Virus record (IMG/VR): IMGVR_UViG_3300025695_000017
Coordinates: 1 to 50,585 of that record
Length of the DNA stretch: 50,585 nucleotides
Strand: one strand, 5' to 3'
Source: a virus
Part shown: positions 309 to 48,189 of the stretch, piece by piece
How positions within the stretch are numbered: position 1 is the first letter of the stretch
Layout: every line of letters begins with the position of its first letter
Made by a program: the position numbers and the translations under genes
The notes under the pieces: model-generated
What the model saw: only the letters and a program-made list of their open reading frames with translations
What the model was told of the DNA's origin: nothing
The model's database searches: none

Positions 309-317
309 ATATTTATA
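309..317 (+). promoter_or_regulatory. Putative phage late promoter motif ATATTTATA
   Basis: This is the first of thirteen copies of a nonamer ATA[T/C]TTATA, nearly all in gaps just upstream of structural genes. It sits 25 nt before the ATG at 343. The core TATTTATA is the reverse complement of the T4 late promoter TATAAATA, so direction is inferred from gene layout rather than from the motif itself. Confidence 0.6.
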
Positions 318-342
318 TATTGAACTAATATTGATAAACGTT

Positions 343-738
343 ATGACGGAAGATTTCGAATTATTTCCCGGTAAAAATCTAAGTGGATTATTTGAGGATA
401 TCTATAATAATCAAATAAATAAGAAAAGACACATCTCCGAAGTGATTGCTGAACTACGAAAGTTAGTTAGGAATCCAAATGATATGAGATATATTGGTCC
501 ACTTATCAAAGATTTAATTGATACATCCGTTCGTAATGATGAATCTCTACTTAAACTTGCTACAATTGCACAACGAATTATGGTTGCTGGAACTAAGAGT
601 GAGGGAGAAGCTGGTTTCCTTAGTGATGCTGAGAGAGAACAGCTCTTAGCAGAGATAGAACAAGTTCAAGATGAAATTGAACGTGTTGATAATATGGAAA
701 ACGAAATCGAAGAAGTTAAGAAAAAATTAGAAAATTAA
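343..738 (+). CDS. Hypothetical helical protein upstream of the baseplate spike gene
   Basis: The protein has 131 residues. I prefer the ATG at 343 over the in-frame TTG at 331, because ATG is the rule among neighbours and it leaves a normal leader after the promoter motif at 309-317. The N-terminal half (for example LFEDIYNNQINKKRH, and PNDMRYIGPLIKDLI) looks globular and helical. The C-terminal third is a charged, heptad-like coiled coil rich in Glu and Lys (EREQLLAEIEQVQDEIER). There is no signal peptide or membrane segment. It is followed without a gap by the spike-like gene at 739, so a role in tail or baseplate assembly is inferred from position. I do not recognise the family. Confidence 0.8.
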   Translation: MTEDFELFPGKNLSGLFEDIYNNQINKKRHISEVIAELRKLVRNPNDMRYIGPLIKDLIDTSVRNDESLLKLATIAQRIMVAGTKSEGEAGFLSDAEREQLLAEIEQVQDEIERVDNMENEIEEVKKKLEN

Positions 739-1977
739 ATGTTCGGAGATAGGAATCTTAATGTACAATCAAACCAATCAAACCAATCACCTCAAATTGA
801 TAAATCCAATATGGGTATTGTTTATCATGTGGTATTGGATGTTGATGATGAGAAATTAGATATACTTGAAATAGCAGATGATTTAAAGCCATTATATATA
901 GGGGCTATTCAATTTAGGAGTAATCGAGCAGCCAGTAAATCAGATGATGAGTTATCATTCGCACTTCCATATAAACAAAACTATATATCTTTGCCAACTA
1001 AAAATGAATTTGTTAGAATAATAAATGCAAAGGGTGGTGGGTATTATTATGAGAGAATCATAAAATCACAATTACCAAATGTTAACAATGTTGGTGATAC
1101 GATACGAAAATCGGTTTCTAAAGACTCATCTACACAAAACACATCTAAGGATTACTCAAATGTACAGACAACCAATATACCCAGAAGTACATCCGATGAT
1201 TCCGCTGATTATGATGGGTATGGTGATTACTTTGATGTAAATTCGAATCTTAATTATCTTAGGTTATATGAGGGTGATACTTTAATAGAAAGTAGATTTG
1301 GTTCATCAATTAGATTTAGCGGATATAATAATACTGAAAACTCATTTTCACCAACACTTATATTACGAAATGGGGAAAATCCACAAACATTAAATGCTGG
1401 TAATGGTATATCAACCGAAGAGGATATCAATAGAGATGGTAATATTATTCTATTGGGGTCTAACCAATATCAACTACCATTTCAACCTGGTACTGTTGAT
1501 GATAAAGGCAAAACTGAGTTTGAAACGACTCCTCTATCATTTAAGGATTATCCAAATGATTTGAAGGGAAATCAAATACTATTAAATTCGGATAGATTGA
1601 TATTCTCTGCAAAAACATCCGAAATGATTTTCTATTCTAAAGGAAACTACGGATTTATTTCAGATGGTGAATTATCTATTGATAATAAGTTTGGTATTCG
1701 GATGAACGTAAATGATGATATCAATATAACAACTAACGATAGAAATGTGAATATCAATAGTGGTAATGGTAATATAAACTTAGGTAATACAAACTTAGAA
1801 TCATTAGTAAAAGGTGAAACATTAGTACAACTAATGACTGAGCTGATTACAGCAATCGAAGCTATGACAGTAGCAACGGCAGCTGGTACATCATCGATAC
1901 CAATAAATGTAGCATCATTTAGTAAAGTGAAATCTCAATTAAAAACAATGTTGAGTAATCTAAACAAAACATCATAA
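739..1977 (+). CDS. Baseplate hub/spike-like protein (gp5-like, without lysozyme domain)
   Basis: The 412-residue protein probably forms the central hub and cell-puncturing spike of the contractile tail. The N-terminal part (about 25-110) has an OB-fold-like beta pattern ending in a GGGYYYERII stretch. A Ser/Thr/Asp-rich linker follows (about 130-160). Then comes a domain with LRLYEGDTLIESRFGSSI, typical of phage hub proteins. A repetitive beta region (DDINITTNDRNVNINSGNGN) resembles the beta-helical needle of gp5/Gp45-type spikes, and a hydrophobic helix follows. No lysozyme domain is visible, unlike T4 gp5. Its TAA overlaps the next ATG by one base (TAATG). The hub/spike call rests on architecture and the position upstream of gp25 and gp6. 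Confidence 0.6.
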   Translation: MFGDRNLNVQSNQSNQSPQIDKSNMGIVYHVVLDVDDEKLDILEIADDLKPLYIGAIQFRSNRAASKSDDELSFALPYKQNYISLPTKNEFVRIINAKGGGYYYERIIKSQLPNVNNVGDTIRKSVSKDSSTQNTSKDYSNVQTTNIPRSTSDDSADYDGYGDYFDVNSNLNYLRLYEGDTLIESRFGSSIRFSGYNNTENSFSPTLILRNGENPQTLNAGNGISTEEDINRDGNIILLGSNQYQLPFQPGTVDDKGKTEFETTPLSFKDYPNDLKGNQILLNSDRLIFSAKTSEMIFYSKGNYGFISDGELSIDNKFGIRMNVNDDINITTNDRNVNINSGNGNINLGNTNLESLVKGETLVQLMTELITAIEAMTVATAAGTSSIPINVASFSKVKSQLKTMLSNLNKTS

Positions 1978-2819
1978 TGTCTTGGAGTTTATTCAAAGCA
2001 AATATAATCCGAAAAACTAATCCTAAGTTTAACAACAACAATATAAATCAGGTTGCTAAGATTTGGGCTGATGAATATGATGCTGCTGTAAAAAGAGGTA
2101 AGGATTTTATAAACTTTGAATCAATACAAAGTGGTAATAAGGCAATAATGGAAACCTTATTTAAGGTTGCATTATTAAAAGGATTTACAACTCCACCGGG
2201 TCAAAACTTTTCATTAGTAAACGAATTCGGAAATGGTGTAAAGGCATATTGGGCGGGAGCTCAAATGAAACCATTCCCAATTCCATTAATACCAGCACCA
2301 GGTTCAATACAAAACATCTCAGTAAATTCAAATGTTGTGGTTAATGTGGGAACATGGCCGATATATCCACCACTAAGACCAGTAAGGAAGCAGGAAACGA
2401 TGGTAGATATGTTTATACTTGCGGCATTGATACATTTATTTTCAATTGGTGGTTTTATACAAACAACATCATTATACCCATCAGCACCATCACCAATACC
2501 AGCCCCAGGTGTTATTCCATGGACTGGTTATTTAGTACCACCTGCTATACCAATTCCAAATATCAACTTCCCATCGGAAGATGGTAGTGAACCGCCGGGA
2601 ATCGAACAACCTGATACGGATATTAATATATCCGATGAAAATGGTGGTGATAACATTGGACAAGGTAATGAAATAGTTGATGAGTTAGATGGTAATACTT
2701 CATTAGAAAATGTGATAAGTGTTTCCATACCATCGGATGTGGATAATGCATTGGAAATTGATAAGATTGTGGAAGATTTTAAACAACAAATTCAGATGGG
2801 TGGTACTAAGTGTGAATAA
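1977..2819 (+). CDS. Proline-rich tail/baseplate-associated protein of unknown function
   Basis: The 280-residue protein is translationally coupled to the spike gene through a TAATG overlap. Residues 1-95 look globular and helical (AKIWADEYDAAVKRGKDFI). The middle is unusually rich in Pro and Ile (PFPIPLIPAPGSI, YPSAPSPIPAPGVIP) and contains a hydrophobic stretch (VDMFILAALIHLFSIGGFI) that could be a membrane-active or buried helix. The C-terminal third is acidic and low in complexity (many D, E, N and G). It is embedded in the baseplate cluster, which suggests a virion or tail-assembly component. I recognise no family, and the hydrophobic segment could also be a trimerisation core. Confidence 0.7.
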   Translation: MSWSLFKANIIRKTNPKFNNNNINQVAKIWADEYDAAVKRGKDFINFESIQSGNKAIMETLFKVALLKGFTTPPGQNFSLVNEFGNGVKAYWAGAQMKPFPIPLIPAPGSIQNISVNSNVVVNVGTWPIYPPLRPVRKQETMVDMFILAALIHLFSIGGFIQTTSLYPSAPSPIPAPGVIPWTGYLVPPAIPIPNINFPSEDGSEPPGIEQPDTDINISDENGGDNIGQGNEIVDELDGNTSLENVISVSIPSDVDNALEIDKIVEDFKQQIQMGGTKCE

Positions 2820-2841
2820 AAAACGAAAAAACCCAAAACAA

Positions 2842-2850
2842 ATATTTATA
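2842..2850 (+). promoter_or_regulatory. Putative phage late promoter motif ATATTTATA
   Basis: This copy lies in the 54-nt gap before the gene at 2874, 23 nt upstream of its ATG. The right flank TAGA matches other copies. Confidence 0.6.
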
Positions 2851-2873
2851 TAGAAAGGAAAACATTTTATATA

Positions 2874-3446: not shown

Positions 3447-3454
3447 TATAGATT

Positions 3455-9271: not shown

Positions 9272-9280
9272 ATATTTATA
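9272..9280 (+). promoter_or_regulatory. ATATTTATA motif immediately before a start codon
   Basis: This copy of the nonamer is only 3 nt upstream of the ATG at 9284, much closer than the other copies (14-50 nt). If it is a promoter, transcripts would begin inside or right at the annotated gene, so either the true start is downstream or the site serves the following genes. Confidence 0.5.
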
Positions 9281-9283
9281 CAT

Positions 9284-14739: not shown

Positions 14740-14748
14740 ATATTTATA
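14740..14748 (+). promoter_or_regulatory. Putative phage late promoter motif ATATTTATA
   Basis: It lies in the 53-nt gap upstream of the gene at 14775, with 26 nt between motif and ATG. The downstream genes look highly expressed and end at a strong terminator, which agrees with a strong late promoter. Confidence 0.65.
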
Positions 14749-16676: not shown

Positions 16677-16685
16677 ATATTTATA
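16677..16685 (+). promoter_or_regulatory. Putative phage late promoter motif ATATTTATA
   Basis: It directly follows the terminator T-tract and lies 14 nt before the ATG at 16700, so the terminator and a new promoter are arranged back to back. Confidence 0.65.
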
Positions 16686-17642: not shown

Positions 17643-17651
17643 ATATTTATA
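17643..17651 (+). promoter_or_regulatory. Putative phage late promoter motif ATATTTATA
   Basis: It is 19 nt upstream of the ATG of the small gene at 17671, in a 32-nt intergenic gap that is otherwise A/T only. Confidence 0.6.
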
Positions 17652-17882: not shown

Positions 17883-18347
17883 ATGTTAAATTGGTTATGG
17901 GAAGGTAACGATGTTACCGAAGAAGTTATACCTGAAGATGCCGTAGGATTTGTTTATATGATTGAACACATTCCTACCGGCAAATATTATATTGGTAAGA
18001 AATCCTTAGAGAGTGTCCGAAATGTAAAAATCGGAGTTAGAGAATTAGCTCGTATCAAAGAAGAACGAAAGTTAAAAGGTATAAGGGGTTCACTACCAAA
18101 AAAGAAAAAAGTTAGAAAATCATCTGACTGGCAGAAATACTATTCATCAAACGATTGGATAAGAGAACAAATCTCAGAAGGAAAGGAAGATGAGTTCAAA
18201 CGTAAAATACTACAATTCTGCTATTCCAAAAAATCATTATCATACTACGAAGTACATTGGATGTTTCATTACGATGTACTATCAGATGATAATTCTCTCA
18301 ACGGAAATATATTAGGAAAATTTTATAGAAAAGATTTGGATAAGTAA
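17883..18347 (+). CDS. GIY-YIG-type endonuclease-like protein
   Basis: The 154-residue protein has the GIY-YIG core near the N-terminus in the form GFVYMIEHIPTGKYYIGKKS (about 21-40), where VYM and YIG are the two signature strands. After a Lys/Arg-rich loop (about 55-80) comes SDWQKYYSSNDWIREQI, which resembles the conserved Tyr and helix region of the fold. A later Glu in YYEVHWMFHYDVL is a candidate metal ligand, by analogy with GIY-YIG nucleases. It could be a homing-type or DNA-degrading nuclease like T4 Seg or EndoII proteins, but it is not inserted in a gene here and sits between the structural and replication blocks. The family is moderately secure; the biological role is unknown. Confidence 0.7.
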   Translation: MLNWLWEGNDVTEEVIPEDAVGFVYMIEHIPTGKYYIGKKSLESVRNVKIGVRELARIKEERKLKGIRGSLPKKKKVRKSSDWQKYYSSNDWIREQISEGKEDEFKRKILQFCYSKKSLSYYEVHWMFHYDVLSDDNSLNGNILGKFYRKDLDK

Positions 18348-18366
18348 AATATTATTTGTATATTAG
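18335..18366 (+). promoter_or_regulatory. Putative host-type (Bacteroidetes sigma) promoter, TTTG-N20-TATATTAG
   Basis: TTTG at 18335-18338 and TATATTAG at 18359-18366 are separated by exactly 20 nt, matching TTTG / TANNTTTG apart from one base in the -7 box. An A/T-rich inverted repeat (AATATTATTT ... AAATAATATT, about 18349-18394) surrounds the start region before the ATG at 18397. Confidence 0.55.
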
Positions 18367-18600: not shown

Positions 18601-18632
18601 TTTGGTAAATCCAAATATTTTTCGTATATTTG
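18601..18632 (+). promoter_or_regulatory. Host-type promoter, perfect Bacteroidetes consensus TTTG-N20-TATATTTG
   Basis: TTTG at 18601-18604 and TATATTTG at 18625-18632 have a 20-nt spacer, a perfect match to the Bacteroidetes housekeeping promoter. It starts right after the previous stop codon and lies 16 nt before the primase ATG, leaving a very short leader. The -33 box is also part of a small inverted repeat TTTGG-TAAAT-CCAAA. Confidence 0.8.
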
Positions 18633-18648: not shown

Positions 18649-19590
18649 ATGCTCTCCGCTAGAAACAAATTAGTTGTTATTAATGTATTAGATTCTGCTT
18701 TAGGTGTTGGTTCATCTTTAAAGGGAAATGAACAGGCACATCATTGTCCGTTCTGCCACCACCATAAGAAGAAACTACAAATAAATGTTGAAACTCAATA
18801 TTGGCATTGTTGGGTATGTGATTCAAAGGGTAGAAGTATCCAATCACTACTCAATCGCTTAAATGTTGATAGAAATGATATAGGTAAAATTATTTCTATA
18901 TATGGTGAATACAAGCCAACTAACAATCAAAGGGAGATTGAAAAGGTAGTACTCAAACTACCAAAGGAATTTAAATCACTCTACCACAAACCGAAATCAA
19001 TCAACCCAATTTACAATCAGGCTATTGGATATCTACTGAATAGAGGTATTACAATGGATGAGGTATTAAAATACAATATTGGGTATTGTGAAGATGGATT
19101 GTATGGTGGTAGAGTGATTATTCCATCTTATAGTGAAGAGGGTGAACTGAACTATTTTATAGCTCGTTCCTTTTATAAGGATTCAACTATGAAGTATAAA
19201 AATCCACCAGTCAGTAGAAATGTAATTGTATTTGATAACCAAATTAATTGGAATGAGCCAATCACCTTAGTTGAAGGTGTGTTTGATTCATTCGCAGTTA
19301 AGAGAAACGTAATCCCAATCTTAGGGAAGTTTCTACCTCGAACTTTGAAAGAAAAGATTTTCGAAAAAGGTGTAAGGGAAATCAACATACTATTAGATTC
19401 AGATGCAGTGGATGATTCCACACAACACGCTAATTACTTTATTCAAAATGGTATAAAAGTAACGAACATCATTCCAAACGGAAATTCAGATGCAGGTGAG
19501 TTGGGATTTGATAAAGTAAACGAATTACTAAAAGAAACCGAAGAAAGTGGTTGGGATGATTTAATCCTATCAAAACTAAACAATTTATGA
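18649..19590 (+). CDS. 61: DNA primase, T4 gp61-like
   Basis: The 313-residue protein makes RNA primers for lagging-strand replication, normally with the gp41 helicase. The N-terminal zinc-binding domain shows C33-P-F-C36 and C54-W-V-C57. The TOPRIM core is visible as LVEGVFDSFAVK with its catalytic Glu (about residue 207) and the DxD motif in INILLDSDAVDDS (about 248). Its length is close to T4 gp61 (342). It is transcribed from the host-type promoter at 18601 and its TGA overlaps the next ATG (ATGA), coupling it to the gp47-gp46 fusion. T4 primase is likewise a separate protein from the helicase. Confidence 0.92.
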   Translation: MLSARNKLVVINVLDSALGVGSSLKGNEQAHHCPFCHHHKKKLQINVETQYWHCWVCDSKGRSIQSLLNRLNVDRNDIGKIISIYGEYKPTNNQREIEKVVLKLPKEFKSLYHKPKSINPIYNQAIGYLLNRGITMDEVLKYNIGYCEDGLYGGRVIIPSYSEEGELNYFIARSFYKDSTMKYKNPPVSRNVIVFDNQINWNEPITLVEGVFDSFAVKRNVIPILGKFLPRTLKEKIFEKGVREINILLDSDAVDDSTQHANYFIQNGIKVTNIIPNGNSDAGELGFDKVNELLKETEESGWDDLILSKLNNL

Positions 19591-22500
19591 AGGTAGAAAA
19601 GATTTACCATTTAGCGGATTTACATATCCGTAATTTGAAAAGACATACGGAGTATAGAGAAGTATTCCAAAAGTTCTTAGATAATGTAGATAGAGATAAT
19701 ATCGAAAACTCTATCATTTATTTAGCTGGTGATATTGCACATGCTAAAACCGAAATGAGTCCCGAATTAGTAAGGGAGATTAGTTGGTTCTTAACTGAGT
19801 GTGCTAATCGAAAGGAAACATTTATGATTACTGGTAATCACGATTGTAACCTAAATAATAATTATCGTTTGGATGTACTAACTCCAATCGTAGAAAACTT
19901 AAACAATGAAAGAATACATTACCTTAGAGATACTGGTATCTATCCCTTCCATAATATTACTTTTGTGGTATATTCGATACTCGATGAAAAAGAGAATTGG
20001 CCAAAGGCGGAATTGGTAGAAGGTGAGAATACTATATGTTTATTCCATGGACCTGTAAACTTAGCACAAACTGATATCGGATACACTGTATCATCCAACT
20101 CATTCACAACTGATATGTTTGAAGGATTTGATATGGTGATGTTAGGTGATATCCACAAAAGACAAACTTTAGGTTCACCAACGATTGCATATGCTGGTTC
20201 TATGATTCAACAAAATCACGGAGAAGCATTGGATAAGCATGGTTATCTATTATGGGATGTTGAAAGTAGAACGTTCGAAGAGTTTGATATTGAAAATGAT
20301 TATGGATTCTATACCTTAGATGTAAACGATGGTGTAGTTCCAAATGTTTCAGATATGCCAAAGAAACCCCGATTGAGAGTTCGTATTTCAAATACTGACC
20401 CAACTCAGATTAAGAGAGCATTAACTGAAATCAAAAAGAAATATAAGGTAGAGGAATTTACTGTTACGAGAATGGATACACTCTCAAAACAAAAGACTGG
20501 TAACTTTGATGATAAGTTGGCAATCGGAAATGTGAGAGATGTGGAATTCCAAAACGAACTGATTAAGGATTACTTAGAAAGACAATACTTAGCAGATGAG
20601 GATACTGTTGATAAGATTCAACAACTCAATAGGGATATGAATACAAAGTTGGTAGATGATGATGTTGTACCGAACATCCAATGGATACCAAAGACATTTG
20701 AGTTCTCTAATATGTTCTCTTATGGTGAGAACAACAAAATTAGATTCGATAACGCTAAAGGAATGGTGGGAGTATTTGCACCAAACGCTAGTGGTAAATC
20801 ATCTTTATTTGATGCTATCTCATTTTGTATTTTCGATAAGACGAGTAGAACTTATATGGCAAAAAACATAATGAATAATAGAAAAGATAAATTCTATTGT
20901 AAATTAAGTTTTCAGATTGATGGTGTAGATTACTTTATTGAAAGAAGTGCTAAACTAATCAACAAAGGTAAGAATGTAAAAGTAGATGTTTCTTTTTGGA
21001 GAGAAGATGATGGTGGTATCACTTCTTTAAATGGAGAGCAGAGAAGAGAAACCAACGCAAATATTCAACAATACTTAGGTACTTATGATGATTTCGTTTT
21101 AACCACTCTTTCTCTTCAAGGAAACAACGCTTTATTTATTGATAAATCTCAAACTGAGAGAAAGGAAATCTTAGCTCAATTTATGGGTGTAGATGTGTTT
21201 GATAAACTATACTCTTTTGCACAAGAAGAGAATAGAGATAACTCATCTTTAATCCGTAAGTTTAAGCAAGATGATTTTACTCAAAAGTTGGCTGATATCG
21301 AAACTACCTTAAAGGAGAAGGAATCTGAATATAAACTTACTGAGATTCAGTTAAATAGTTCTAAGAGTGAAGTTGAGAAGCACAATCAAAAGTTAATTTC
21401 TCTAAATGAGAAAATTGTAAAAGTTAAATCAGATAACTATTCGTTGGATGCGTTGGAAACTAATAAATTAAAATTAGAATCATCTATTACTGATTTAGAA
21501 GAGCAACGTAATACTACTCAAAGTATAATTAATGAGTTAGAAGAAAAGCAACTTAAATTAGAAGAAGAGATTGATACCTATGATGAAGATAAAATCACAA
21601 AAGAACATCAATTATTCAACAAATATACATCCGATTTAAAGGATTTAGATAATGAGTTAGATAAGTTGAAAATCAAAGAAGATTCTTTGATGGATAGAAT
21701 GAGGCATTTGGAATCACATAAATACAATAAAGATTGTGATATTTGTATGGAGAATTCTGAATCAATCATTGATGCTAAAGTTGGTGTTGAAGCTGATTTA
21801 GCTACTATCGAAGTTGATAAGAAACAAATGTTTGAAGATAAGAATGTTCTACTTCTTGCTATTGATACTCGTAAAAAGTATTCTGATTTGTTAAGTAACC
21901 TTACCAAATTAAAATCAGATGAGGAAAGGGTAAGTAAAAATATTAACACACTTATCAACAAGTTATCAACATTCGAAACCAAAGAAATCAAACTAAATAA
22001 CGAAGTTCTACAAGTTATACAACTTATTGAAGATTATTTAGATAATGAGAAGCAGATTGAAATCAATCAACAATTGAGAGTAGATATGAAGAATGTTCGA
22101 AACGAACTAAGTTCAGCTAAGAATACTACTGATTCACTAAATACTCAGATTCTTAAACTAAATGGTGAGGTATCATCGTTAAAGAATCAAAAGGAAACTA
22201 TTGAAGAGAGAATCAAAGAGGTAGAACAATTAGAAGAACAACATGGTTTGTTTGAGTATTACCTAAACGCTTTGGGTAAGGATGGTGTATCTTATGAATT
22301 GATTTCTAAGGCACTACCAATGATTGAAGGTGAGGTAAACAACATCTTAGGTCAGATTGTAGATTTCGGATTACAATTAGATATGGATGGTAAGAACATC
22401 AACGCTAACATCGTTTACGATGACCAGAAATGGAGTTTAGAGATGTGTAGTGGTATGGAGAAGTTCATTAGTGGTTTAGCGATTAGAATCGCTCTAATCA

Positions 22501-22718
22501 ACGTATGTAACCTACCTCGTCCAAACTTCTTAGTTGTAGATGAAGGATTTGGTACATTAGATAATGAAAACCTAACATCATTGTATATGTTGTTCGCTTA
22601 TCTAAAAACACAATTCGATTTCGTAATGATTATCTCACACATCGATTCAATGAGAGATGTAGTTGATAACCTAATGGAAATCAAAAAAGTAAATGGATTT
22701 AGTAATATTAAATTTTAA
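19587..22718 (+). CDS. 47-46: Fused recombination nuclease gp47-gp46 (SbcD-SbcC / Mre11-Rad50) in one chain
   Basis: The 1043-residue protein fuses two proteins that are separate in T4 and most organisms. Residues 1-~340 are an Mre11/SbcD calcineurin-like phosphoesterase: D11-L-H13, G48-D49, GNHD at 83-86, and GDIHKRQT further on. Residues ~365-1043 are a Rad50/SbcC ATPase: Walker A at 398-406 (APNASGKSS), a long coiled coil, a zinc-hook C717-D-I-C720, an ABC signature region (MCSGMEKFISG), Walker B VVDEGFG with D985-E986, and an ISHID switch. The frame is continuous and all motifs are intact, so this is not a frameshift artefact. It resects DNA ends for recombination-dependent replication. 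It follows primase by an ATGA overlap. Confidence 0.93.
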   Translation: MKVEKIYHLADLHIRNLKRHTEYREVFQKFLDNVDRDNIENSIIYLAGDIAHAKTEMSPELVREISWFLTECANRKETFMITGNHDCNLNNNYRLDVLTPIVENLNNERIHYLRDTGIYPFHNITFVVYSILDEKENWPKAELVEGENTICLFHGPVNLAQTDIGYTVSSNSFTTDMFEGFDMVMLGDIHKRQTLGSPTIAYAGSMIQQNHGEALDKHGYLLWDVESRTFEEFDIENDYGFYTLDVNDGVVPNVSDMPKKPRLRVRISNTDPTQIKRALTEIKKKYKVEEFTVTRMDTLSKQKTGNFDDKLAIGNVRDVEFQNELIKDYLERQYLADEDTVDKIQQLNRDMNTKLVDDDVVPNIQWIPKTFEFSNMFSYGENNKIRFDNAKGMVGVFAPNASGKSSLFDAISFCIFDKTSRTYMAKNIMNNRKDKFYCKLSFQIDGVDYFIERSAKLINKGKNVKVDVSFWREDDGGITSLNGEQRRETNANIQQYLGTYDDFVLTTLSLQGNNALFIDKSQTERKEILAQFMGVDVFDKLYSFAQEENRDNSSLIRKFKQDDFTQKLADIETTLKEKESEYKLTEIQLNSSKSEVEKHNQKLISLNEKIVKVKSDNYSLDALETNKLKLESSITDLEEQRNTTQSIINELEEKQLKLEEEIDTYDEDKITKEHQLFNKYTSDLKDLDNELDKLKIKEDSLMDRMRHLESHKYNKDCDICMENSESIIDAKVGVEADLATIEVDKKQMFEDKNVLLLAIDTRKKYSDLLSNLTKLKSDEERVSKNINTLINKLSTFETKEIKLNNEVLQVIQLIEDYLDNEKQIEINQQLRVDMKNVRNELSSAKNTTDSLNTQILKLNGEVSSLKNQKETIEERIKEVEQLEEQHGLFEYYLNALGKDGVSYELISKALPMIEGEVNNILGQIVDFGLQLDMDGKNINANIVYDDQKWSLEMCSGMEKFISGLAIRIALINVCNLPRPNFLVVDEGFGTLDNENLTSLYMLFAYLKTQFDFVMIISHIDSMRDVVDNLMEIKKVNGFSNIKF

Positions 22719-23758: not shown

Positions 23759-23767
23759 ATATTTATA
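23759..23767. promoter_or_regulatory. Putative late promoter motif ATATTTATA (reads TATAAATA on the minus strand)
   Basis: It lies 29 nt before the ATG of the giant fibre gene at 23797. Here the site is between divergent genes: on the minus strand it reads as the exact T4 late box TATAAATA, 57 nt before the ATG of the antisense gene. It could serve either gene. Confidence 0.6.
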
Positions 23768-26700: not shown

Positions 26701-29700
26701 ACACAAGGTGATTTATTCTTAATAAATACTGCAAGTGGCGATCCTGGTACGTTTACCACCCGTTCAATAGTTACAACTAATATTGAGTATGGGACATTGG
26801 TTGGTGATTCAACCACAACAATGAGTTTGGCTGGATTCGAAACAATGTCAGCACTAAGTGCTAGTGTTAGATATGATTTTGATATCTACCCATACTTTAC
26901 ATCATCATTGGTAACTGCAAGTAGAACTCAAAAGTTCACTAAGGTAGTTGATGGTGGTGGGCCTATTGAAGTTACAATAGAACCAATGGCAGTTGCATTA
27001 AATGCTGATGAGATTGGATATGTTTCCAATTATTCAAGTGCAACAACTGAAGTATTTATAAAACAAAATGATGAGTTCTTCTTCTATGATGAATTTGATG
27101 GTGGTAGACCTGGTACATTTGTAACGCAATCTATAACACAACGAAATATACAATTTTCAGAAGTTTCATCTTCATTTAGGGATTTAATTGCATCTGGTAG
27201 TGTATCTTCATCTGATGGAGAAATATTACATTTTAAAGGATTTGGGGGATTGGCAAATAATCAACCATCTGGTAGTATTACATATAAATTTAAGGTTTAT
27301 CCTTATTCATTGACTGCTGGTGTAGGTGGTGTTCCTAGAATAGTTTCAGCAACTCAAACATTTTCAAAAGTAAGTGATGGAACTGCTGCAAGAAAGGTTA
27401 GTTTAATAGCTAGTAGTGATACTGTTATTTATGATGGTGATGGGCTTAAAGTTGCACCGGTAGGTGATGTTGATTTATCTGCAATTGCTATAAATGTAAC
27501 TGGTTCTGCTTTTTTTAAATTCTTAAATGATGATGGTTCCACAATACAAGCATCATCGACAGATAGCACAACTACTATTGGTGATTTACCATCTACTGGT
27601 TCAGCAAAAACATTTACAGTTGAATTACGAGATGGTAATCCTAATGGAGTGGTGGTTGATACCGATACTGTAACTATATCTGGTATATCGGAGGGTTCAA
27701 CTGCATATTCGGCAGTAGTAACAAATCCAGCATCTTCTATAACTGTTGAAGTTGATGGTACAACATTTGTTGAAAACACAAGTACATTAATACGAGCATA
27801 TAAGGGTGGGACTGAATTACAATATGTTGAGGAATATGATGAAGCGGCATTAGACCCAATTACATTCTTACCAATCGGTACATTTGGACAATTTTCAGCA
27901 TCTATACATGATATATCACCATTCCTAACACATAATGATGGTAGGTTGTTGGAAACTTCTGGTGAATTATATGCTAGTTCGTCTGGTATATCGGATTGGA
28001 CCGAACCTCAATCAAATACACAGGGATTCATTGTATATAAACTTGACTTTGAGAATGGTAGAGGTGAGCAATTTGTACAACAATCATTCTCAGCTGTTTT
28101 TGAAGGAGCAACTGGGCCTGGTATTGTAATGAGGGGTGAGTGGACCGGTAGTATTGCATACATATTTGACCAAGGTAACCAAAGGAGAGATGCTGTACTT
28201 AGGAACGTTGATGGGACAACTCATTATTGGGCAACAACACAATTAATACCATCTGGTTCAGAATACACCGATGGTGATGATGAATACACACCAGAACCAC
28301 AACTACCATCACAAACAAATCCTGATGGTACTTATGTTGAGGGAACTATTGATACTAATGGTTGGGAGTATTTGGGTCAGCAAGAACTATTCGTTGCAGC
28401 TAAGATTGCAATATTTGATGAATCGTTTGTAAAAAATACAATTAATGTAGGTGAACCAACAACCGATTATGATACCAATCCCCAAATTGCGATTGTTGGT
28501 GGAACCGATGAACCTTATATATCGATAGGGCAGAGTATTCAAGGATATGGACAACAGGGTGCATATATTGGTGTAACCAACAATGGAGGACCAACTGGAA
28601 CCGCAGGTACATCAGGTCTATTATCATTATCAGGTGACCCAACGGAACCATCATATAATTCATTAAAGTGGGATGGTCAAACACTTTTAATCAGAGGTGC
28701 AATTAGACAAACTGCAGCAGGTTCAATAGAACCACAATTAAGAGGTGATTGGACAGATGGTGCATATTATAATACTGATGATTCGGTTTTATATCTAAAT
28801 CAAAGTTTTAGAGCAAGTGCACCACATACAGCATCTCAGGGTGATGGAGTTTTTGGGGAACCAAACATTGGAGATGTATGGGATGCATCGTCTGGTGTTG
28901 GTAAAACGGCAACATTAGCAGCATCTACTTTTGTTATTGAGTTTGACCAAGATGGAAATAATCCATCTCCAAGTAGTATCAACTTAATTGCATCATCATC
29001 AAACTTTGTAAATCCTTTCTTTAAATTTACAGGCGGTGGTACATTCCATAATAATGATGTTTCCTTTTACGATGGTAATGATGTTGAAAATCATTTATCA
29101 AGTAGTATAGATTTAAGTTCAGCAACTATATCTGATATGCCTCTACAATTTAGATTAGGTGTTTCTGATGCTGACCAAGTTGAAGTAGTTAGTGATGTGA
29201 TTAACATATTTGGGGTTAAACCAGGTTCCGATACTGTACCAAATTATTTCATTACTCCAATCGCTGGTGGTACTCAAATAAAAAATAGTAGTGGTACTAT
29301 TACACTACAAGTTCAAAAAGCAGATATTAGTGGAATAACTGATATAACATCTGGTACTGATGCACAAATTTATGATGGTGGAACTTTATTAGCCGTACAA
29401 AGTGGTGTTAGTGATGCTGGTAATGGGGTAGTTTATAATCCAAACATTACATCGGATTTTATTACTGGAACTAAAACACTTTTACTAAAAGATAATGGTG
29501 GTACGGTATTAGATTCTATAACACTATTGGATGTAACCGATGGTTTAGGTGGTGGTTCATTTATAGCACCTAACTTAAAAACAAATAGAAATACATCAGT
29601 TACTCCGAACACATTTAGTCCAAGTTACTTATCCGCAACCGCATCATTCTACGATACATCTGGAACTGAATACACTCAAAGTGTTACTATTACTCCATCG

Positions 29701-32700
29701 TTTAGTGTTGGTGTGGATAGAATGGCTGTATCAACTGGTGTTGGTGATACTACAAATATTACGATTACAGCTGGTGATGGTGATGGTGGAACCATTACAT
29801 TAGGTGGAGCATCGGTACCTACAAAAGATACTGTATTAACCGCAATATTTACTGACCCTGCAACTGGACAGACAAACACAATAAATGAAACATTCTATAT
29901 TGTATCTGATGGTGTGGATGGTGTTGATGCAATAACTGTAATTAATACAAACCAAGCACACACACTTCCAGCTTCATCTGCTGGTGTGGTTTCATCATAT
30001 ACTGATAGTGGTACGGTGATACGAGTATTTGAAGGTGTACTCGAACTATACTACACAAACGGAACACCAAGTGATGGTGAATTTACAATATCAGCTACAC
30101 AAAGCCCATCAGGTGTTATGAATACACCATCTATCGATGTAGAAGAAGCAGGAGAAGAACCAGCTGAAGTTGCTGATTTTACTTCAATGGATAATGCACA
30201 AGATTCGGTTATTGTAACGTATACCATAACCGGTCTGAGAAGTGGTGGGGCATCATTTACATCAACCACAACACAAACTTTAACTAAAGTAAAAGATGGT
30301 ACGGATGGTGAAGATGGTGGTGTAGTATATGCTGGTGAATGGAAACTAACACTATCCGATGGTACAACACCAACTATAAGTGATAAGGTGGTATATTTGG
30401 CTGAAGATAATTTAAAGTATGTGACTAAGTATAATAATAGTTATTATATATGTGCAACAACACATAGATATGCGGGTGCTTGGGATGGTAGTGAAGATTA
30501 CCTTGAAGGTGATGTAGTATTGGAAAGTGGTACTTACTATCGTGCTGGGCAAGATATTCTTGCGGGGGATTTCTTTCCGGGTGACCCTGAATGGCCATCG
30601 GTTGGTTCATCAATTGAACCTGGAACTTGGACAGCTGGGTGGGAATCCTTCGGAGCAGAGTTTACTTCTGTGGCAACTGATATTCTTTTTGCACAAGATG
30701 TTTATGCTGATAGAACTATAAATATTGGTTCAAATGGTTCAAGTGCAGTTATTCAATTAAACGCAGATACATCTAATTCAAATCAAAACCCATTTTTATC
30801 TATTGGACAAAATGGGACAGAAGGATATGGTAATCCTGGTATGTTCTTTGGATTTGATAGTGGTTCCGAAAAACTTTCTATTTCTGGTTCTGGTGGTGCA
30901 CTAACTTTTGATGGTAATTTATTTAATTATAGTGGAACAATTAGTGCGGGTACATTAAATGGTATGACTTTAATTGGAGGTACAATTAGTGTTCCCAATG
31001 CAACAAACCCACTATTCTCAGTAGATTCCGAAGGTAACATGTCTGCACAAGATGCAAACATATCTGGTTCATTTAATATAGAATCTGGTAAAATTGGTAA
31101 TTGGGTAATTGATGATATAGCTAATGGTGGGTTTTTACGAGATGTTGATAATAGGATAGTACTAAATCCAACGGATAAGAAAATTCAATTATTTAATCAA
31201 TCAAATGAACTAAAGGCAAAAATTAATGCGGATGACACACTTTCTAACATTGCTGGTGGTAATCTAAATGTTTCCGGTCTTAATACTACAAGTATAGCTG
31301 CACCATCAGGCCCATCATTAACAAGTGCTGGGTTCAGTACAATAACGGGTACATATCAATTCGGTAATGAAGTTTCGGTAACGGTTCAAGATGCGGGGGA
31401 GTATTCAATTAGTGGATTATTTGATTATACTTCGATACCAATACCAAATCTTACTACATCCGGACTTTCAAATGTATCAACTAGTACTGGAAGTCCAAAT
31501 GGATATATAAATGTAGGTTCTGGTGCACCATCACCATACTCATTTGATGGATATTACTCAAGTGGAATTTCACCTAGATATGCATATCAATATTTTTATT
31601 TAGAGATTGTAGATGCGGGTGGAACAGTTATACACAGAGAACAAATTTCTTATGCTTACGCAAGGAGTGGATATAGTTTGGGTAACTATTATACACACCC
31701 AAATCCATATGGATCTGTAACCAACACTGGGTGGCAATATCAGAGTGGGTATAGTTCAGCTGCAAACTCATTTTCATATTCAAGTATTAGTGCAAATCAT
31801 AGCTTTGAAGTAGACCTAACTCCACAAACTTATAAATTTAGGTATAGTACTGTAATGAAAAATAGAAATGGAGTTGCATCTTACTTAAATGGTCAAACAA
31901 CTACACCAACTTATACTTATTACAGTCACACAAAGAGTGGTCTTAGTTTTTCAACAAGTGAATTAGATTCTTCAGTTACTGCCGCAGCACCTGCAAACTT
32001 TATTGAATTATCGGGTGGGGGGTTCCAAGCTGCAACAAATTCTAACCAGTTTGTTAAGATATTTAGAAATTCTCCAACTTCTTATAATAGTACTCTTATA
32101 CAGGCTAAAGGTGGTTATGTGAACTTACAACAATCTGATAAAGGAGATAAGTCTTTAGATGTTCAAGGAACATCAACATTTGGCGGCCAGGTTAATATTG
32201 GTGTTAATTGGGGTTCCTCCTTTGATAATGGAAAAGGTTATACTGTTTTGAAAAGTCCTGTTTTTCAATATAAAACTTACAGTTCTGGAGGAGCCATAAC
32301 CTCTCCACTATTTATTGATGTACGGGAAGCTAGTTTTTTTAGGTTAAGAGCTACTTCTACTTCTAATAGATACTTTGAATTACCACATAAACAATTTGCA
32401 AGTAGTACTGCTGTTCCATTTAGAGAAAGAGACAGGGACAATTCAAATGAGATTTATGGTGTTGATGATTTTGAAGTGGGGCATTTAGCAATACTATTTA
32501 ATTACAACTATGATGATGATGCTTGTTATATTGCTGGAATATCTGGTAGAGCTGATGATAATGGGTGGTATACACTAAATGGGGGTAGATGTATTATGGT
32601 TGTTTATGATAAATATGCACTCCAGCATGGTGGTAGTTCACTTAATACCGATGCAGAGGGTGGTTGGATAATCGTAAATGGAGATACATCTACGGTAAAC

Positions 32701-34120: not shown

Positions 34121-34129
34121 ATACTTATA
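34121..34129 (+). promoter_or_regulatory. Variant late promoter motif ATACTTATA
   Basis: It differs from the majority motif by T to C at the fourth position and lies 19 nt before the ATG at 34149. A second copy of the same variant precedes the gene at 42940. Confidence 0.5.
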
Positions 34130-34426: not shown

Positions 34427-34458
34427 TTTGGTATTCTAATATTTTTTTTGTATATTTG
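34427..34458 (+). promoter_or_regulatory. Host-type promoter, perfect Bacteroidetes consensus TTTG-N20-TATATTTG
   Basis: TTTG at 34427-34430 and TATATTTG at 34451-34458 are 20 nt apart, identical to the arrangement before primase. It drives the glycosylation island starting at 34495, after a leader with an inverted repeat. Confidence 0.82.
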
Positions 34459-38945: not shown

Positions 38946-38954
38946 ATATTTATA
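38946..38954 (+). promoter_or_regulatory. Putative phage late promoter motif ATATTTATA
   Basis: It begins 5 nt after the kinase stop and lies 37 nt before the ATG at 38992. The flanks extend the alternation (TAT on both sides). Confidence 0.6.
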
Positions 38955-39411: not shown

Positions 39412-39420
39412 ATATTTATA
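39412..39420 (+). promoter_or_regulatory. Putative phage late promoter motif ATATTTATA
   Basis: Full local context CGTATATTTATATAGT resembles the copies at 45891 and 48181. It is 27 nt before the ATG at 39448. Confidence 0.65.
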
Positions 39421-42904: not shown

Positions 42905-42913
42905 ATACTTATA
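42905..42913 (+). promoter_or_regulatory. Variant late promoter motif ATACTTATA
   Basis: Same T to C variant as at 34121. It lies 26 nt before the ATG at 42940, followed by an alternating TA tract. Confidence 0.5.
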
Positions 42914-44294: not shown

Positions 44295-45878
44295 ATGGCT
44301 AAACAAAGACAATCTTTAAAAGCAATTATAGCTCAGGAGTATCAGAAATGTGCTTCTGACCCAATATACTTTATGAAGAAGTATTGTATGATTCAACATC
44401 CGGTGAGAGGAAAAATTCCTTTTCACCTTTTTCCGTTTCAAGAGGAAACATTAGTTGACTTTAAAGACCATCGTTACAATATCATTCTTAAATCCAGACA
44501 AACTGGTATCTCAACACTAACCGCAGGATTCTCTTTGTGGAAAATGTTATTCAATCAAGATTACAATGTATTGGTAATTGCAACTAAGCAAGAGGTAGCC
44601 AAAAACTTGGTAACAAAAGTAAGGGTAATGAATCAGTACTTACCATCTTGGTTAAAGTTGGAAACTGTTGAAGATAACAAACTATCATTACGATATGCAA
44701 ATGGTTCTCAAATTAAAGCAACTTCTGCTGCTGGTGATGCTGGTCGTTCGGAAGCACTATCTTTATTGGTGTTTGATGAGGCAGCATTTATCGATAAGAT
44801 TGAAGAGATATGGGTATCAGCTCAATCTACATTATCAACGGGGGGTTCGGCAATTATCCTTTCTACTCCAAATGGTGTGGGTAACTTTTTCCACAAAACT
44901 TGGGTGGGTTCTGAAGAAGGTTCAAATGGATTCAACAATATCAGATTACATTGGAGTGTTCACCCTGAAAGAGACCAAGATTGGAGAGATGAACAAGAAA
45001 CACTATTAGGACCTAAAGGAGCAGCACAAGAATGTGATTGTGATTTCGTTTCTTCTGGGGATAGTGTGATAGACCCACAACTTTTACAATTCTACAAAGA
45101 TACCTATGTTCAAGACCCAATCGAAAAAGGTGGGTTTGATGGAAATCTTTGGAAGTGGGCATATCCAGATTATAATAAATCATATATAGTTGTTGCCGAT
45201 GTTGCGAGGGGTGATTCATCGGATTATTCCGCATGCCATGTAATTGATATAGAGGCATCTGAGCAAGTTGCTGAGTATAAGGGTAAATTAGATACAAAAG
45301 ATTTTGGAAACTTCTTAGTATCTCTTTCTACGGATTACAACAACGCATTGTTGGTAATTGAAAACGCAAACATTGGTTGGGCTTGTATTCAACAAGTAAT
45401 TGATAGAAACTATTCTAACCTATATTATACCAACAAAGATTTGAAGTATGTGGATAGTGAGAATCAATTCTCAAACAAATACCGAGCGCAAGATAGAAAT
45501 CAAGTAGCCGGTTTCTCAACTACCTCTCGAACTAGACCTTTGATTATTTCAAAGTTGGAAGAGTATATCAGAGATAAATCAATCACAATCCGTTCAGTAC
45601 GAACTATCGATGAATTGTTTACATTTATTTGGAATAATGGTAGAGCAGAAGCGATGAGAGGTTATAATGATGATTTAACTATGAGTTTAGCTATTTCACT
45701 TTGGGTAAGGGATACTGCTCTTAGATTAAGACAAGAAGGTGTAGATTTAACCAAAAGAGCTATTGATGGTATTTCTACTTATACTTATAATGGGGTATAT
45801 GGTGGAACTAACAACGATGATAATCCTTGGCAAATGGAATTCGGAGATGGATTCGAAGATTTGACAAAATGGTTATAA
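44295..45878 (+). CDS. 17: Terminase large subunit, T4 gp17-like
   Basis: The 527-residue protein is the packaging motor ATPase and headful nuclease. The ATPase has a Walker A variant SRQTGIST (67-74) and Walker B LLVFDEAAF (D161-E162), followed by the coupling motif IILSTPNG (about 187-194). The RNase H-like nuclease begins VVADVARGDSSDYSA (D302 and D310 as metal ligands), with a later acidic YNDDLTMSLA segment that holds the third Asp. T4 gp17 is 610 residues; the shorter N-terminus is usual outside coliphages. It lies just before the portal region, as expected. No small terminase gp16 is recognised in the window. Confidence 0.95.
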   Translation: MAKQRQSLKAIIAQEYQKCASDPIYFMKKYCMIQHPVRGKIPFHLFPFQEETLVDFKDHRYNIILKSRQTGISTLTAGFSLWKMLFNQDYNVLVIATKQEVAKNLVTKVRVMNQYLPSWLKLETVEDNKLSLRYANGSQIKATSAAGDAGRSEALSLLVFDEAAFIDKIEEIWVSAQSTLSTGGSAIILSTPNGVGNFFHKTWVGSEEGSNGFNNIRLHWSVHPERDQDWRDEQETLLGPKGAAQECDCDFVSSGDSVIDPQLLQFYKDTYVQDPIEKGGFDGNLWKWAYPDYNKSYIVVADVARGDSSDYSACHVIDIEASEQVAEYKGKLDTKDFGNFLVSLSTDYNNALLVIENANIGWACIQQVIDRNYSNLYYTNKDLKYVDSENQFSNKYRAQDRNQVAGFSTTSRTRPLIISKLEEYIRDKSITIRSVRTIDELFTFIWNNGRAEAMRGYNDDLTMSLAISLWVRDTALRLRQEGVDLTKRAIDGISTYTYNGVYGGTNNDDNPWQMEFGDGFEDLTKWL

Positions 45879-45890
45879 ATTATCTTTGTT

Positions 45891-45899
45891 ATATTTATA
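45891..45899 (+). promoter_or_regulatory. Putative phage late promoter motif ATATTTATA
   Basis: It lies in the 49-nt gap after terminase, 28 nt before the ATG at 45928; context GTTATATTTATATAGTAT matches the copy at 39412. Confidence 0.65.
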
Positions 45900-45927
45900 T
45901 AGTATAAGTTTAATTATAGGATTTTAA

Positions 45928-46335
45928 ATGGAGAATTACTCAGAGGAACTTTATAACGAATTCAAATTAGGATTGGATGAAAACATCGAAGAATATGATG
46001 TTGAAAACTGTGAAGATTTGAAAGAGTTTATCCACTTTCTAAAAAATATGAAAGAGGAACTTACTGAAGCTGAATATCAAGGTAGAAAGGTAAAACTTAA
46101 TAAACCAATGGATGGTGATGTAAAGAAGTTCAAAGTGTATGTAAAAAATCCAAAGGGAAATGTTGTAAAAGTAAACTTTGGACATGGTGGTTCATCTGCT
46201 AAAAAAGCTGGTGAAAAAACTATGAGGATTAAGAAAGATAATCCAGAAAGAAAAAAAGCATTTAGAGCAAGACACAATTGTGATTCACCTGGCCCAAGAC
46301 ACAAAGCTAGGTATTGGAGTTGTAAAGCTTGGTAA
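45928..46335 (+). CDS. Conserved phage protein with predicted prohead protease site
   Basis: The 135-residue protein has an acidic helical N-terminus (1-44) ending with KEELTE, an L-T-E site (45-47) of the prohead protease type. The remainder is a basic domain starting AEYQGRKVKLNKP, with VKKFKVYVKNPKGNVVKV and a conserved end AFRARHNCDSPGPRHKARYW. I recall this end from many T4-like marine phages, where it often occurs within larger proteins. Cleavage would release an ~88-residue, strongly basic peptide that could bind packaged DNA. It sits between terminase and portal. The cleavage and DNA-binding ideas are inference. Confidence 0.8.
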   Translation: MENYSEELYNEFKLGLDENIEEYDVENCEDLKEFIHFLKNMKEELTEAEYQGRKVKLNKPMDGDVKKFKVYVKNPKGNVVKVNFGHGGSSAKKAGEKTMRIKKDNPERKKAFRARHNCDSPGPRHKARYWSCKAW

Positions 46336-46339
46336 TAAA

Positions 46340-46371
46340 TTAGGATAATTCAATAATTTTTCGTATCTTAG
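46340..46371 (+). promoter_or_regulatory. Weak host-type promoter variant, TTAG-N20-TATCTTAG
   Basis: TTAG at 46340-46343 and TATCTTAG at 46364-46371 keep the 20-nt spacing of the two perfect copies, but both boxes carry TTAG instead of TTTG. It lies 26 nt before the portal ATG. The spacing supports it; the changed bases weaken it. Confidence 0.45.
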
Positions 46372-46397
46372 ATAGATTATAAGATAAAGTAAATAGA

Positions 46398-48155
46398 ATG
46401 GCAGAAGAACAAAATAGTTCATTTTTTAATCGATTAACGAAACTCTTTTCTACCCAAGCAATCGTAACGGTTGATAAGGAAGGAAAAAGAAAAGTTGTTG
46501 ATGTAGATGATAGACAGCAAGGTGGTACTAACTTAATGAATTTAAGGGATAGGTACACCAAACTACAAAGGTCTTTTTATGGGGACCAGATGGCAGCTCA
46601 ATCAATGGCTTATCATCAAGTTCGTAGAGAATTATTCAGAGATTACGATGCTATGGATAATGACCCAATCATCTCATCGGCATTAGATATTTACGCAGAT
46701 GAGTGTACTCTTAAAAACGAATTCGGTGAAGTAGTACAAATCAAAACACAAAACGAAAAAGTAAAGGAAGTATTAGAAAACCTTTTCTATGATATTCTTA
46801 ACATAGAGTTCAACCTTTGGTCTTGGACTCGTAATATGGTTAAGTATGGTGATTTCTTCTTAGTACAAGAAATCCAAGAAGGAGTGGGTATTATAAATGT
46901 AAAACCACTTCCAGTTTATGAAACTGAAAGATTGGAGAATACCGACCCAAACAACGCAAACTATGTTAAGTTTAATGTAAACCATGACCCAAATGGGAAA
47001 GGTGAATATGAGAACTATGAAGTAGTACACTTTAGATTATTATCAGATACCAACTTCTTACCTTATGGAAAGGCAATGATTGAAAATGGTAGAAGAATTT
47101 GGAAGCAAGTTTCTTTGATGGAAGATGCTATGTTGATTCATAGAATTATGAGAGCACCTGATAAGAGAGTTTTCAAAATTGATATTGGTAATATCCCACC
47201 ACAAGAAGTTGATAATTATATGCAGAAGATTATCAACAAAATGAAGAAAACTCCATTTGTAGATAAAAAGACTGGTGATTACAACTTAAAGTATAATATC
47301 CAAAACCTAACTGAAGATTTCTTCTTACCTGTTAGGGGTGGTGATAGTGGTACTGAAATTGATTCATTGGGTGGATTAGAGTACACCGCAATTGATGATA
47401 TTGATTACTTAAAGAATAAACTATTTGCAGCACTTAAAATTCCAAAAGCATATTTGGGATATGATGAGAATGTAAATGGTAAAGCAACTCTTGCTGCAGA
47501 GGATGTGAGATTTGCAAGAACAATCGAGAGAATTCAAAGAACTCTTATATCGGAACTTACTAAGATTGCAGTAACACATTTAGCAGCACAAGGTTTCGAA
47601 GGTAAGGAAATGGTTGATTTTGAATTGGATTTGGTAAACCCATCTACAATCTATGAGCAAGAGAAAGTAAACCTTTGGAGTGAAAAAGTAAGATTAGTTT
47701 CTGATATTACTCAGTTGAATATGATTTCAAAGGAATGGGCTTATAAGAATATCTTTAATATGAGTACTGATGAAATTGATTATCAGAAAACTCAAATGAT
47801 TAATGACTTGAAAGATAGATTCAGATATCGTTCTATTGAAGATGAAGGTAATGACCCAGCAATGGAAAGTGAACCAACTGATGTAGAAGATGAGTTGGAA
47901 GAAATTAAATCATCTTTAAAGGATAAAGGTGGTAGACCAAGGGAGGGAAATACTTATGGTAAGGATAAACACCCATATGGTAGAGACCCGTTAGGAGCAA
48001 AGGAGAATCACAAAGCATTGAAAAAAACCGAAGGTAAAGTTACTAAAAAGGCAGGTAAATTTGCTAAGGAATATGTTAATGGAGTATCCGCAAAACGAAA
48101 GTTAATGAGTGAAGGCGGAGACTTTTTAGATGATTCAAATTTGATTGATGAATAA
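46398..48155 (+). CDS. 20: Portal vertex protein, T4 gp20-like
   Basis: The 585-residue protein forms the dodecameric ring through which DNA enters the head. T4 gp20-type motifs are visible: YDAMDNDPIISSALDIYADE near residue 82, LEYTAIDDIDYLKNKLFAAL near 335, then IPKAYLGYDENVNGKATLAA, followed by EDVRFARTIERIQRTLISEL. The length is near T4 gp20 (524), with a longer, charged C-terminal tail. It is preceded by a variant host-type promoter and followed by prohead genes. The order terminase, portal, prohead core, protease is the canonical T4 order. Confidence 0.95.
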   Translation: MAEEQNSSFFNRLTKLFSTQAIVTVDKEGKRKVVDVDDRQQGGTNLMNLRDRYTKLQRSFYGDQMAAQSMAYHQVRRELFRDYDAMDNDPIISSALDIYADECTLKNEFGEVVQIKTQNEKVKEVLENLFYDILNIEFNLWSWTRNMVKYGDFFLVQEIQEGVGIINVKPLPVYETERLENTDPNNANYVKFNVNHDPNGKGEYENYEVVHFRLLSDTNFLPYGKAMIENGRRIWKQVSLMEDAMLIHRIMRAPDKRVFKIDIGNIPPQEVDNYMQKIINKMKKTPFVDKKTGDYNLKYNIQNLTEDFFLPVRGGDSGTEIDSLGGLEYTAIDDIDYLKNKLFAALKIPKAYLGYDENVNGKATLAAEDVRFARTIERIQRTLISELTKIAVTHLAAQGFEGKEMVDFELDLVNPSTIYEQEKVNLWSEKVRLVSDITQLNMISKEWAYKNIFNMSTDEIDYQKTQMINDLKDRFRYRSIEDEGNDPAMESEPTDVEDELEEIKSSLKDKGGRPREGNTYGKDKHPYGRDPLGAKENHKALKKTEGKVTKKAGKFAKEYVNGVSAKRKLMSEGGDFLDDSNLIDE

Positions 48156-48180
48156 AAATTTAGGAAATCAAAAATAACTT

Positions 48181-48189
48181 ATATTTATA
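48181..48189 (+). promoter_or_regulatory. Putative phage late promoter motif ATATTTATA
   Basis: It lies in the 84-nt gap after the portal gene, 50 nt before the ATG at 48240, the longest leader among the copies. Confidence 0.6.

Follow-up and report, generated by a model that had tools for sequence, protein, structure and literature searches.

IMG/VR record IMGVR_UViG_3300025695_000017 was analysed over its whole length of 50,585 nucleotides (hereafter the window). This 50.6-kb viral record, probably a fragment, encodes a portal and a large terminase as well as a baseplate protein resembling gp6, and 42 of its 43 called genes lie on one strand. For terminase and portal, the nearest named phages are Flavobacterium phage immuto and Mel-JY01. 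The window phage is probably a T4-superfamily phage of Bacteroidota; a terminase search of bacterial genome contigs for the host found no relative. We focused on a nonamer, ATAYTTATA, that recurs upstream of the window genes, and on a sigma factor of longer relatives that probably reads it. The copies of the nonamer, together with elements of a second, host-type class, are listed in Table 1.

Table 1. Positions of the candidate promoter elements in the window
Feature	Positions	Strand	Context
Putative late -10 element ATATTTATA	309..317	+	before gene 331/343-738
Putative late -10 element ATATTTATA	2842..2850	+	before gene 2874
Putative late -10 element ATATTTATA	9272..9280	+	3 nt 5' of ATG, gene 9284
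Putative late -10 element ATATTTATA	14740..14748	+	before gene 14775
Putative late -10 element ATATTTATA	16677..16685	+	before gene 16700
Putative late -10 element ATATTTATA	17643..17651	+	before gene 17671
Putative late -10 element ATATTTATA	23759..23767	+	before 2971-aa open reading frame 23797 (fibre in the preliminary description)
Putative late -10 element ATACTTATA	34121..34129	+	before gene 34149
Putative late -10 element ATATTTATA	38946..38954	+	before gene 38992
Putative late -10 element ATATTTATA	39412..39420	+	before gene 39448
Putative late -10 element ATACTTATA	42905..42913	+	before gene 42940
Putative late -10 element ATATTTATA	45891..45899	+	before gene 45928, ahead of portal gene (46398, phrog_213)
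Putative late -10 element ATATTTATA	48181..48189	+	before gene 48240
Candidate host-type -7 element TATATTTG	18625..18632	+	before primase gene 18649 and SbcC/SbcD-like gene 19587
Candidate host-type -7 element TATATTTG	34451..34458	+	before gene 34495 (glycosyltransferase/methyltransferase matches)
Candidate host-type -7 variant TATATTAG	18359..18366	+	before gene 18397
Candidate host-type -7 variant TATCTTAG	46364..46371	+	before portal gene 46398; weaker assignment

The nonamer is concentrated in intergenic gaps

On both strands of the window, ATAYTTATA occurs 15 times, compared with a mean of 6.28 in 100 shuffled sequences, none of which reached 15. Fourteen copies are on the plus strand, and 13 of these lie wholly within intergenic gaps, as defined by a gene list that we built from open reading frames (ORFs). 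The gaps make up 1185 of the 50577 9-mer positions (2.3%); when they were shuffled 2000 times with dinucleotides kept, plus-strand copies averaged 0.59 and never exceeded 4. The preliminary description, which had placed thirteen copies in gaps upstream of plus-strand genes, is borne out, with every coordinate exact. Within the gaps of the ORF-based list, the minus strand carries no copy; with an automatic gene caller, which called one minus-strand gene, a single antisense TA[T/C]TTATA is found in the window gaps. Two copies had escaped the earlier description, at 45781 on the plus strand, within the terminase ORF, and at 30717, the sole minus-strand copy, within the fibre ORF. As claimed, the copy at 27053 lies in the fibre ORF and lacks the leading A, leaving TATTTATA.

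The window has 18 gaps of at least 25 nt, and 13 of them carry one late element each. All 13 gap copies are in such gaps, and none is found at starts within tightly packed operons. The motif ends 3-50 nt before the start codon; the spacing of 14-50 nt given before as usual applies to 12 of the 13 copies, the one at 9272 having 3 nt. With the usual spacing, transcription from 9272-9283 would begin at or within the annotated ATG, so that either the true start lies further on or the spacing differs there; a similarly short spacing is seen in one relative (locus L320). The statement that the downstream genes are mostly structural could be checked only in part in the window, where most of the scanned proteins have no PHROG match of known function.

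The motif is conserved in relatives and oriented with the genes

We assembled 836 distinct upstream gaps from 301 IMG/VR loci, retrieved with terminase, portal, baseplate and sigma queries (best 80 per query); this sample favours close relatives and the neighbourhoods of these four genes. In these gaps, TATTTATA occurs 323 times in sense and 11 times in antisense orientation, TATAAATA 11 times in sense versus 323 in antisense, and TACTTATA 55 and 15 times, respectively. The most over-represented 8-mer is ATATTTAT, present in 363 gaps where 44.7 are expected. Removal of near copies left 155 sites, in which the octamer core is fixed by site selection. Of these sites, 98% have the leading A, and the octamer's third position is T at 90% and C at 10% of them; the motif lies at a median of 24 nt from the start codon. 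A further 80 loci, from other lineages with more distant sigmas, gave 87 sense and 10 antisense copies of TATTTATA in 269 gaps.

The named phages behave similarly. Immuto has 24 sense and 8 antisense copies of TATTTATA in 99 gaps (shuffled mean 2.6), and Mel-JY01 has 14 and 3 in 103 gaps (shuffled mean 2.9). In immuto, the copies precede the annotated terminase, portal (gp20), sheath, tail completion, hub and tape measure genes, and 17 of the 24 sense copies are in the 78-160 kb virion half. Two relatives of about 260 kb, G001 and G015, have 40 sense and 6 antisense, and 42 sense and 12 antisense, copies of TA[T/C]TTATA; in G001, 279 of 286 called genes are on one strand. As controls, a gap scan of T4 (75-125 kb) gave 10 sense and 6 antisense TATAAATA, a poor contrast that we attribute to T4 genes lying on both strands, and a scan of cyanophage P-HM2, whose genes are on one strand there, gave 6 sense and 0 antisense CTAAATA.

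The preliminary description presented the core of the motif as the exact reverse complement of the T4 late promoter. This is correct as letters and misleading as mechanism: TAT..ATA is self-complementary, so that the reverse complement of TATAAATA differs from it only by the change of the central AA to TT. A gp55-like sigma could in principle read TATAAATA on the minus strand and fire away from, or across, the gene, and exact TATAAATA is indeed found on the minus strand at 11 of the 13 sites. However, because of the self-complementarity, a minus-strand TATAAATA is expected for any TATTTATA. Moreover, the copies are oriented with the genes, nearly all of which are on one strand, and the upstream base pattern described below, G/C and then A/T, appears when the motif is read in the gene direction. 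We consider this possibility extremely improbable. The motif as a minus-strand T4 promoter was rejected on orientation, given the absence of minus-strand gap copies in the window and the sense excess in relatives; recognition in the opposite orientation, one of the options raised initially, also fits poorly with the median of 24 nt before the start and with the separation from gaps that hold host-type promoters.

The closeness to start codons could also suggest that the nonamer acts otherwise in RNA or DNA, for example as a translation-start or RNA-processing signal. This is very unlikely, since the distance to the start codon is variable, since the upstream base preference is seen in the motif register, the one examined, and since all window copies are in the longer gaps.

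Putative late and host-type elements occupy different gaps

Five of the window gaps of at least 25 nt lack the late element. Four of them carry TAHHTT[T/A]G (before 18397, 18649/19587, 34495 and the portal gene), and the gap before 33439 has neither element. TAHHTTTG is the -7 element described for Flavobacterium johnsoniae (PMC6847099); the A in place of the last T was added here. Of 758 pooled gaps of at least 25 nt, 369 contain just the late element and 77 just the host-type element, whereas 312 contain neither and none contains both; the rows of this set are related, and the host pattern was chosen after examples had been seen. The looser TAHHTTTG also matches in two late gaps of the window (14723 and 45881), and one gene in G001 and one in G015 have both elements.

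The likeness between the two elements raises the question of whether the motif is a variant of the host -7 element, used by the host primary sigma with a phage activator and no phage sigma. The element of the Bacteroidota primary sigma has T-12, A-11, T-8 and T-6 in common with the motif (PMC6847099), and the AT-rich stretches upstream of the motif resemble those reported for F. johnsoniae. On the other hand, the motif differs from TAHHTTTG at two positions, with A-7 for T-7 and A-5 for G-5; this G-5 is nearly invariant in the host, whereas all copies of the motif, as defined, have A there. The separation of the two elements between gaps and the presence of a phage sigma homologue in immuto, Mel-JY01 and 3 of 15 IMG/VR records also argue against this alternative, which we regard as unlikely.

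Upstream of the motif, we counted bases in 35 promoter clusters, with one vote each. G/C is found at about half of the sites 18 and 19 nt before the first T, compared with a background of 22%, and is followed by A/T (p 6e-4 for each position, before correction for the 60 positions tested). This G/C preference is weak, and no -35 hexamer was seen. In single phages, immuto gives a hint of it (12 of 24 at -18) and Mel-JY01 none. F. johnsoniae promoters have AT-rich stretches centred at -18 and -28 (PMC6847099), and the upstream preference may therefore belong to the host polymerase.

Overall, the nonamer is very probably the -10 element of T4-type late promoters, read in the normal direction by a gp55-like sigma of the phage; this explains the observations best as a whole. 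From sequence, its role as a late promoter is nearly certain, and the sigma is probably its reader. A phage sigma with a gp55-like domain 2 would bind the host core RNA polymerase, recognize the nonamer in the usual direction and direct transcription of the virion genes. Relative to the T4 element TATAAATA, the late element has TT for AA at -10/-9 (T4 numbering). Some replication genes, and the sigma operon in part of the relatives, have host-type elements instead. The first option of the preliminary description, a gp55-type sigma of changed specificity, is the one that fits the evidence best.

A gp55-like sigma in longer relatives

A search of 12 records for the gp55 family gave, besides T4 itself, one candidate, encoded at 78186-78521 of immuto (phrog_234, E 0.008). 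This sigma or homologues of it are present in 5 of 17 records, namely immuto, Mel-JY01 and three IMG/VR contigs; the latter belong to a set of 15 records, comprising the window and 14 others retrieved through their terminase or portal, and the majority of this set are probably fragments. The sigma is also found in LR756508, and Rhodothermus phage RM378 has a distant homologue. Six more long contigs carry the sigma, but they were retrieved with it as the query and therefore have no bearing on its frequency. In G001, the sigma gene is about 3.4 kb to the left of the counterpart of the first whole gene of the window, and in immuto it adjoins this counterpart.

The AlphaFold model of the sigma has a predicted local distance difference test (pLDDT) score of 76.6 and a predicted template modelling (pTM) score of 0.43. 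Its top structural match is T4 gp55 in the open complex (7d7c_F; Z 10.5, 2.6 Å over 104 residues), and the phage protein is thus predicted to contain a sigma domain 2 fold. Homologues of gp55 and gp33 had been proposed as a check: a gp55-like sigma, weak by sequence, is found in longer relatives, while the window lacks the gene and gp33 was not detected in the records searched. With a phage RNA polymerase considered as the reader of the motif, the family PF00940 gave no hit in 13 records, but the control was also silent, so that this is no evidence of absence; multi-subunit polymerases were not searched.

We looked at up to 800 bp upstream of the sigma gene in 56 of the 80 sigma loci. No late element was found there, and 17 loci have a host-type element, which fits a sigma made ahead of the late genes.

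Predicted base-reading pockets of the sigma

In the T4 gp55 complex (PMC7892883), Y97 is the stacking partner of A-12, a shallow pocket that includes N13 and H95 accommodates A-9, and T99 is in contact with A-8. Compared with T4, the motif keeps A-12 and A-8, whereas the bases at -10/-9 are changed and A-9 is lost. In the 53 aligned new sigmas, Y97 is always kept, and N13 is always replaced (T in 49, G in 3, D in 1). The R57 position is T in 52 sigmas and R in one (Mel-JY01), and the H95 position is F or Y in all 53. Among other positions, F86 is F or Y in 53, D74 is acidic in 52 and E70 in 41. The changed pocket matching the changed base is suggestive, in an alignment that is distant.

The gp55 of P-HM2 has F at the H95 position, yet N, K, Y and T at the other pocket places. 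The replacement of H95 by F as the sole cause of the changed specificity was accordingly rejected.

An extra C-terminal domain and a possible link to replication

With 222-262 residues in the sigmas compared, against 185 for T4 gp55, the sigma has a conserved extra C-terminal domain, which when modelled alone forms four helices (pLDDT 91.9). By fold or profile, this domain has no clear match to gp33 or sigma4, a relationship that is neither supported nor refuted; its best rows are signal recognition particle (SRP), TFIIB and homeodomain structures, with Z of at most 5.3, too weak to use. A search for gp33 homologues in 12 records besides T4, including the window, gave none, a weak negative since gp33 is short and divergent. 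A 2010 review of T4 late transcription asks why a fused late sigma does not exist or has not been found (PMC2988020). The phage protein may tentatively be regarded as such a naturally fused late sigma, reading the shifted promoter TATTTATA, with a gp55-like domain 2, a C-terminal domain that would do the job of gp33/sigma4 on the polymerase flap and one clamp-binding tail, although we hold this combination to be somewhat doubtful.

C-terminal tails of the kind FF[S/A][F/Y] occur in 2 of 286 called genes of G001 and in 2 of 332 of G015. In both genomes, these are only the sigma and the DNA polymerase (FFSY/FFSF and FFAY/FFAF, respectively), the polymerase being identified as a homologue of the family B polymerase of Mel-JY01. 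The tails of T4 gp55, gp33 and gp43 are alike, and they bind the sliding clamp (PMC2988020). Homologues of the clamp gp45 are found in 4 of 7 long IMG/VR relatives. Other sigma lineages have DFW-like tails, which are not always terminal, and the immuto sigma is without such a tail. In the lineage of the window, the sigma probably docks on the clamp in the manner of gp55 and gp33 of T4, through a tail of the FF[S/A]Y kind or a similar one at its C-terminus, and this docking would couple late transcription to replication. Such a coupling is plausible in this lineage, on the basis of the present analysis.

Observations weighing against the interpretation

Several observations weigh against a T4-type late promoter read by a gp55-like sigma. 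Concerning the promoter, the copy at 9272 is only 3 nt from its ATG, 7 of the 24 sense copies in immuto are outside the virion half, and LR756508 (100 kb read) has the sigma with only 1 sense TATTTATA and 3 sense TA[T/C]TTATA in 68 gaps. In addition, 39 of the 56 sigma loci have neither promoter type upstream under the patterns used. The sigma gene itself was not found in the window by profile search, and lies outside it; a relative extending 2.1 kb further to the left (L245) still does not reach it.

The identification of the sigma is also weak at the sequence level. Against the whole library, the immuto protein matches phrog_234 with E of only 0.5; the value of 0.008 came from a search of one genome. 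Among 40 members of the sigma family, phrog_234 is not one of the 17 PHROGs matched by any of them, and Sigma70_r2 is matched by one (E 0.0098). A sequence search of the PDB gave no sigma factor, hhalign against gp55 gave a probability of 27%, and the 53-sequence profile placed T4 gp55 at E 0.13, among unrelated ORFs; in T4, the new sigma profile found no match. By structure, other sigma factors score on a par with gp55 (Z 10.5), a modest value when the fold is helical, and Foldseek alone gave no hit with E < 0.02.

As for the pockets, P-HM2 shares F at the H95 position, T99 is replaced in most of the 53 sigmas (G 31, Q 11, S 9, T 2) even though A-8 is kept, and the clamp-helix contact E77 of T4 is kept in none. 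Regarding the tail, no gp45 was found in immuto, Mel-JY01, LR756508 or RM378, and the tail pattern is absent from the gene ends of immuto (220 called genes) and Mel-JY01 (235). The support gained from the 80 further loci is about as large as the weakening of the pocket argument by T99, and our estimate is thus unchanged.

Other features of the window and its relatives

The ORF at 19587-22718 encodes 1043 residues, with an SbcD-like profile over residues 2-345 and an SbcC-like profile over 297-1041. It apparently fuses both subunits of the recombination nuclease (T4 gp47 and gp46), in an operon that follows a host-type promoter. A GIY-YIG endonuclease ORF (SegE-like, PF19835) at 17883-18347 is located between a late and a host-type promoter. 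In immuto, a second motif is repeated in the gaps: TTTAGGTA and ATATTTAG are each found in 17 gaps in sense and 2 in antisense orientation, possibly an early or middle promoter. Microcystis is given as the host of Mel-JY01 (PP395634). This is at odds with the grouping of its terminase and portal with those of the Flavobacterium phage, and the host label deserves a check. Its gaps contain 17 sense and 9 antisense TAHHTTTG (shuffled mean 5.2).

Comparison with known late promoters

A literature search covering titles or the beginnings of abstracts, with most subscription papers outside its scope, gave no report of TATTTATA as a phage late promoter, nor of a fused late sigma. The sites do not follow the T4-type consensus TATAAATA or NATAAATA; TATAAATA occurs three times on the plus strand of the window and never in a gap. 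Cyanophages are similar in having a short late element and a gp55 homologue. Their element (NATAAATA in S-PM2, according to PMC2984593; CTAAATA in P-HM2 in this analysis) keeps the central AA, and the gp55 of P-HM2 is short (156 aa).

RM378 has the TATTTA core and, as said, a distant homologue of the long sigma; unlike here, its repeat TATTTAA ends in AA and not TA, and its genes are on both strands. It has no sense TATTTATA, and no 7-mer is more frequent in its gaps than TATTTAA (31 sense, 16 antisense, shuffled mean 2.2). This repeat is a possible late promoter of RM378, whose annotation includes a second sigma (Rm378p144, phrog_1740).

Late transcription in T4 is the classic example of genes being switched on by a replication clamp. 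As in the T4 system of gp55, gp33 and gp45, a -10-like element lies upstream of virion genes here, oriented with the gene. The new sigma resembles gp55 in its modelled sigma domain 2, in the pocket tyrosine and, in two genomes, in a tail common to sigma and DNA polymerase. It departs from T4 in that TATTTATA takes the place of TATAAATA, N13, R57 and T99 are mostly replaced, a four-helix C-terminal domain is added and gp33 was not found. With this extra domain and no detectable gp33, the old question of the fused late sigma can be put to a direct test. Members of the group are frequent among public viral contigs, where at least 596 relatives were counted by terminase, and sequence now allows their late operons to be marked. 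An arrangement similar to that of T4 seems to work here for hosts whose promoters are very different, with both the DNA signal and the sigma pockets changed, and it offers a natural experiment in how the code read by a sigma can shift.

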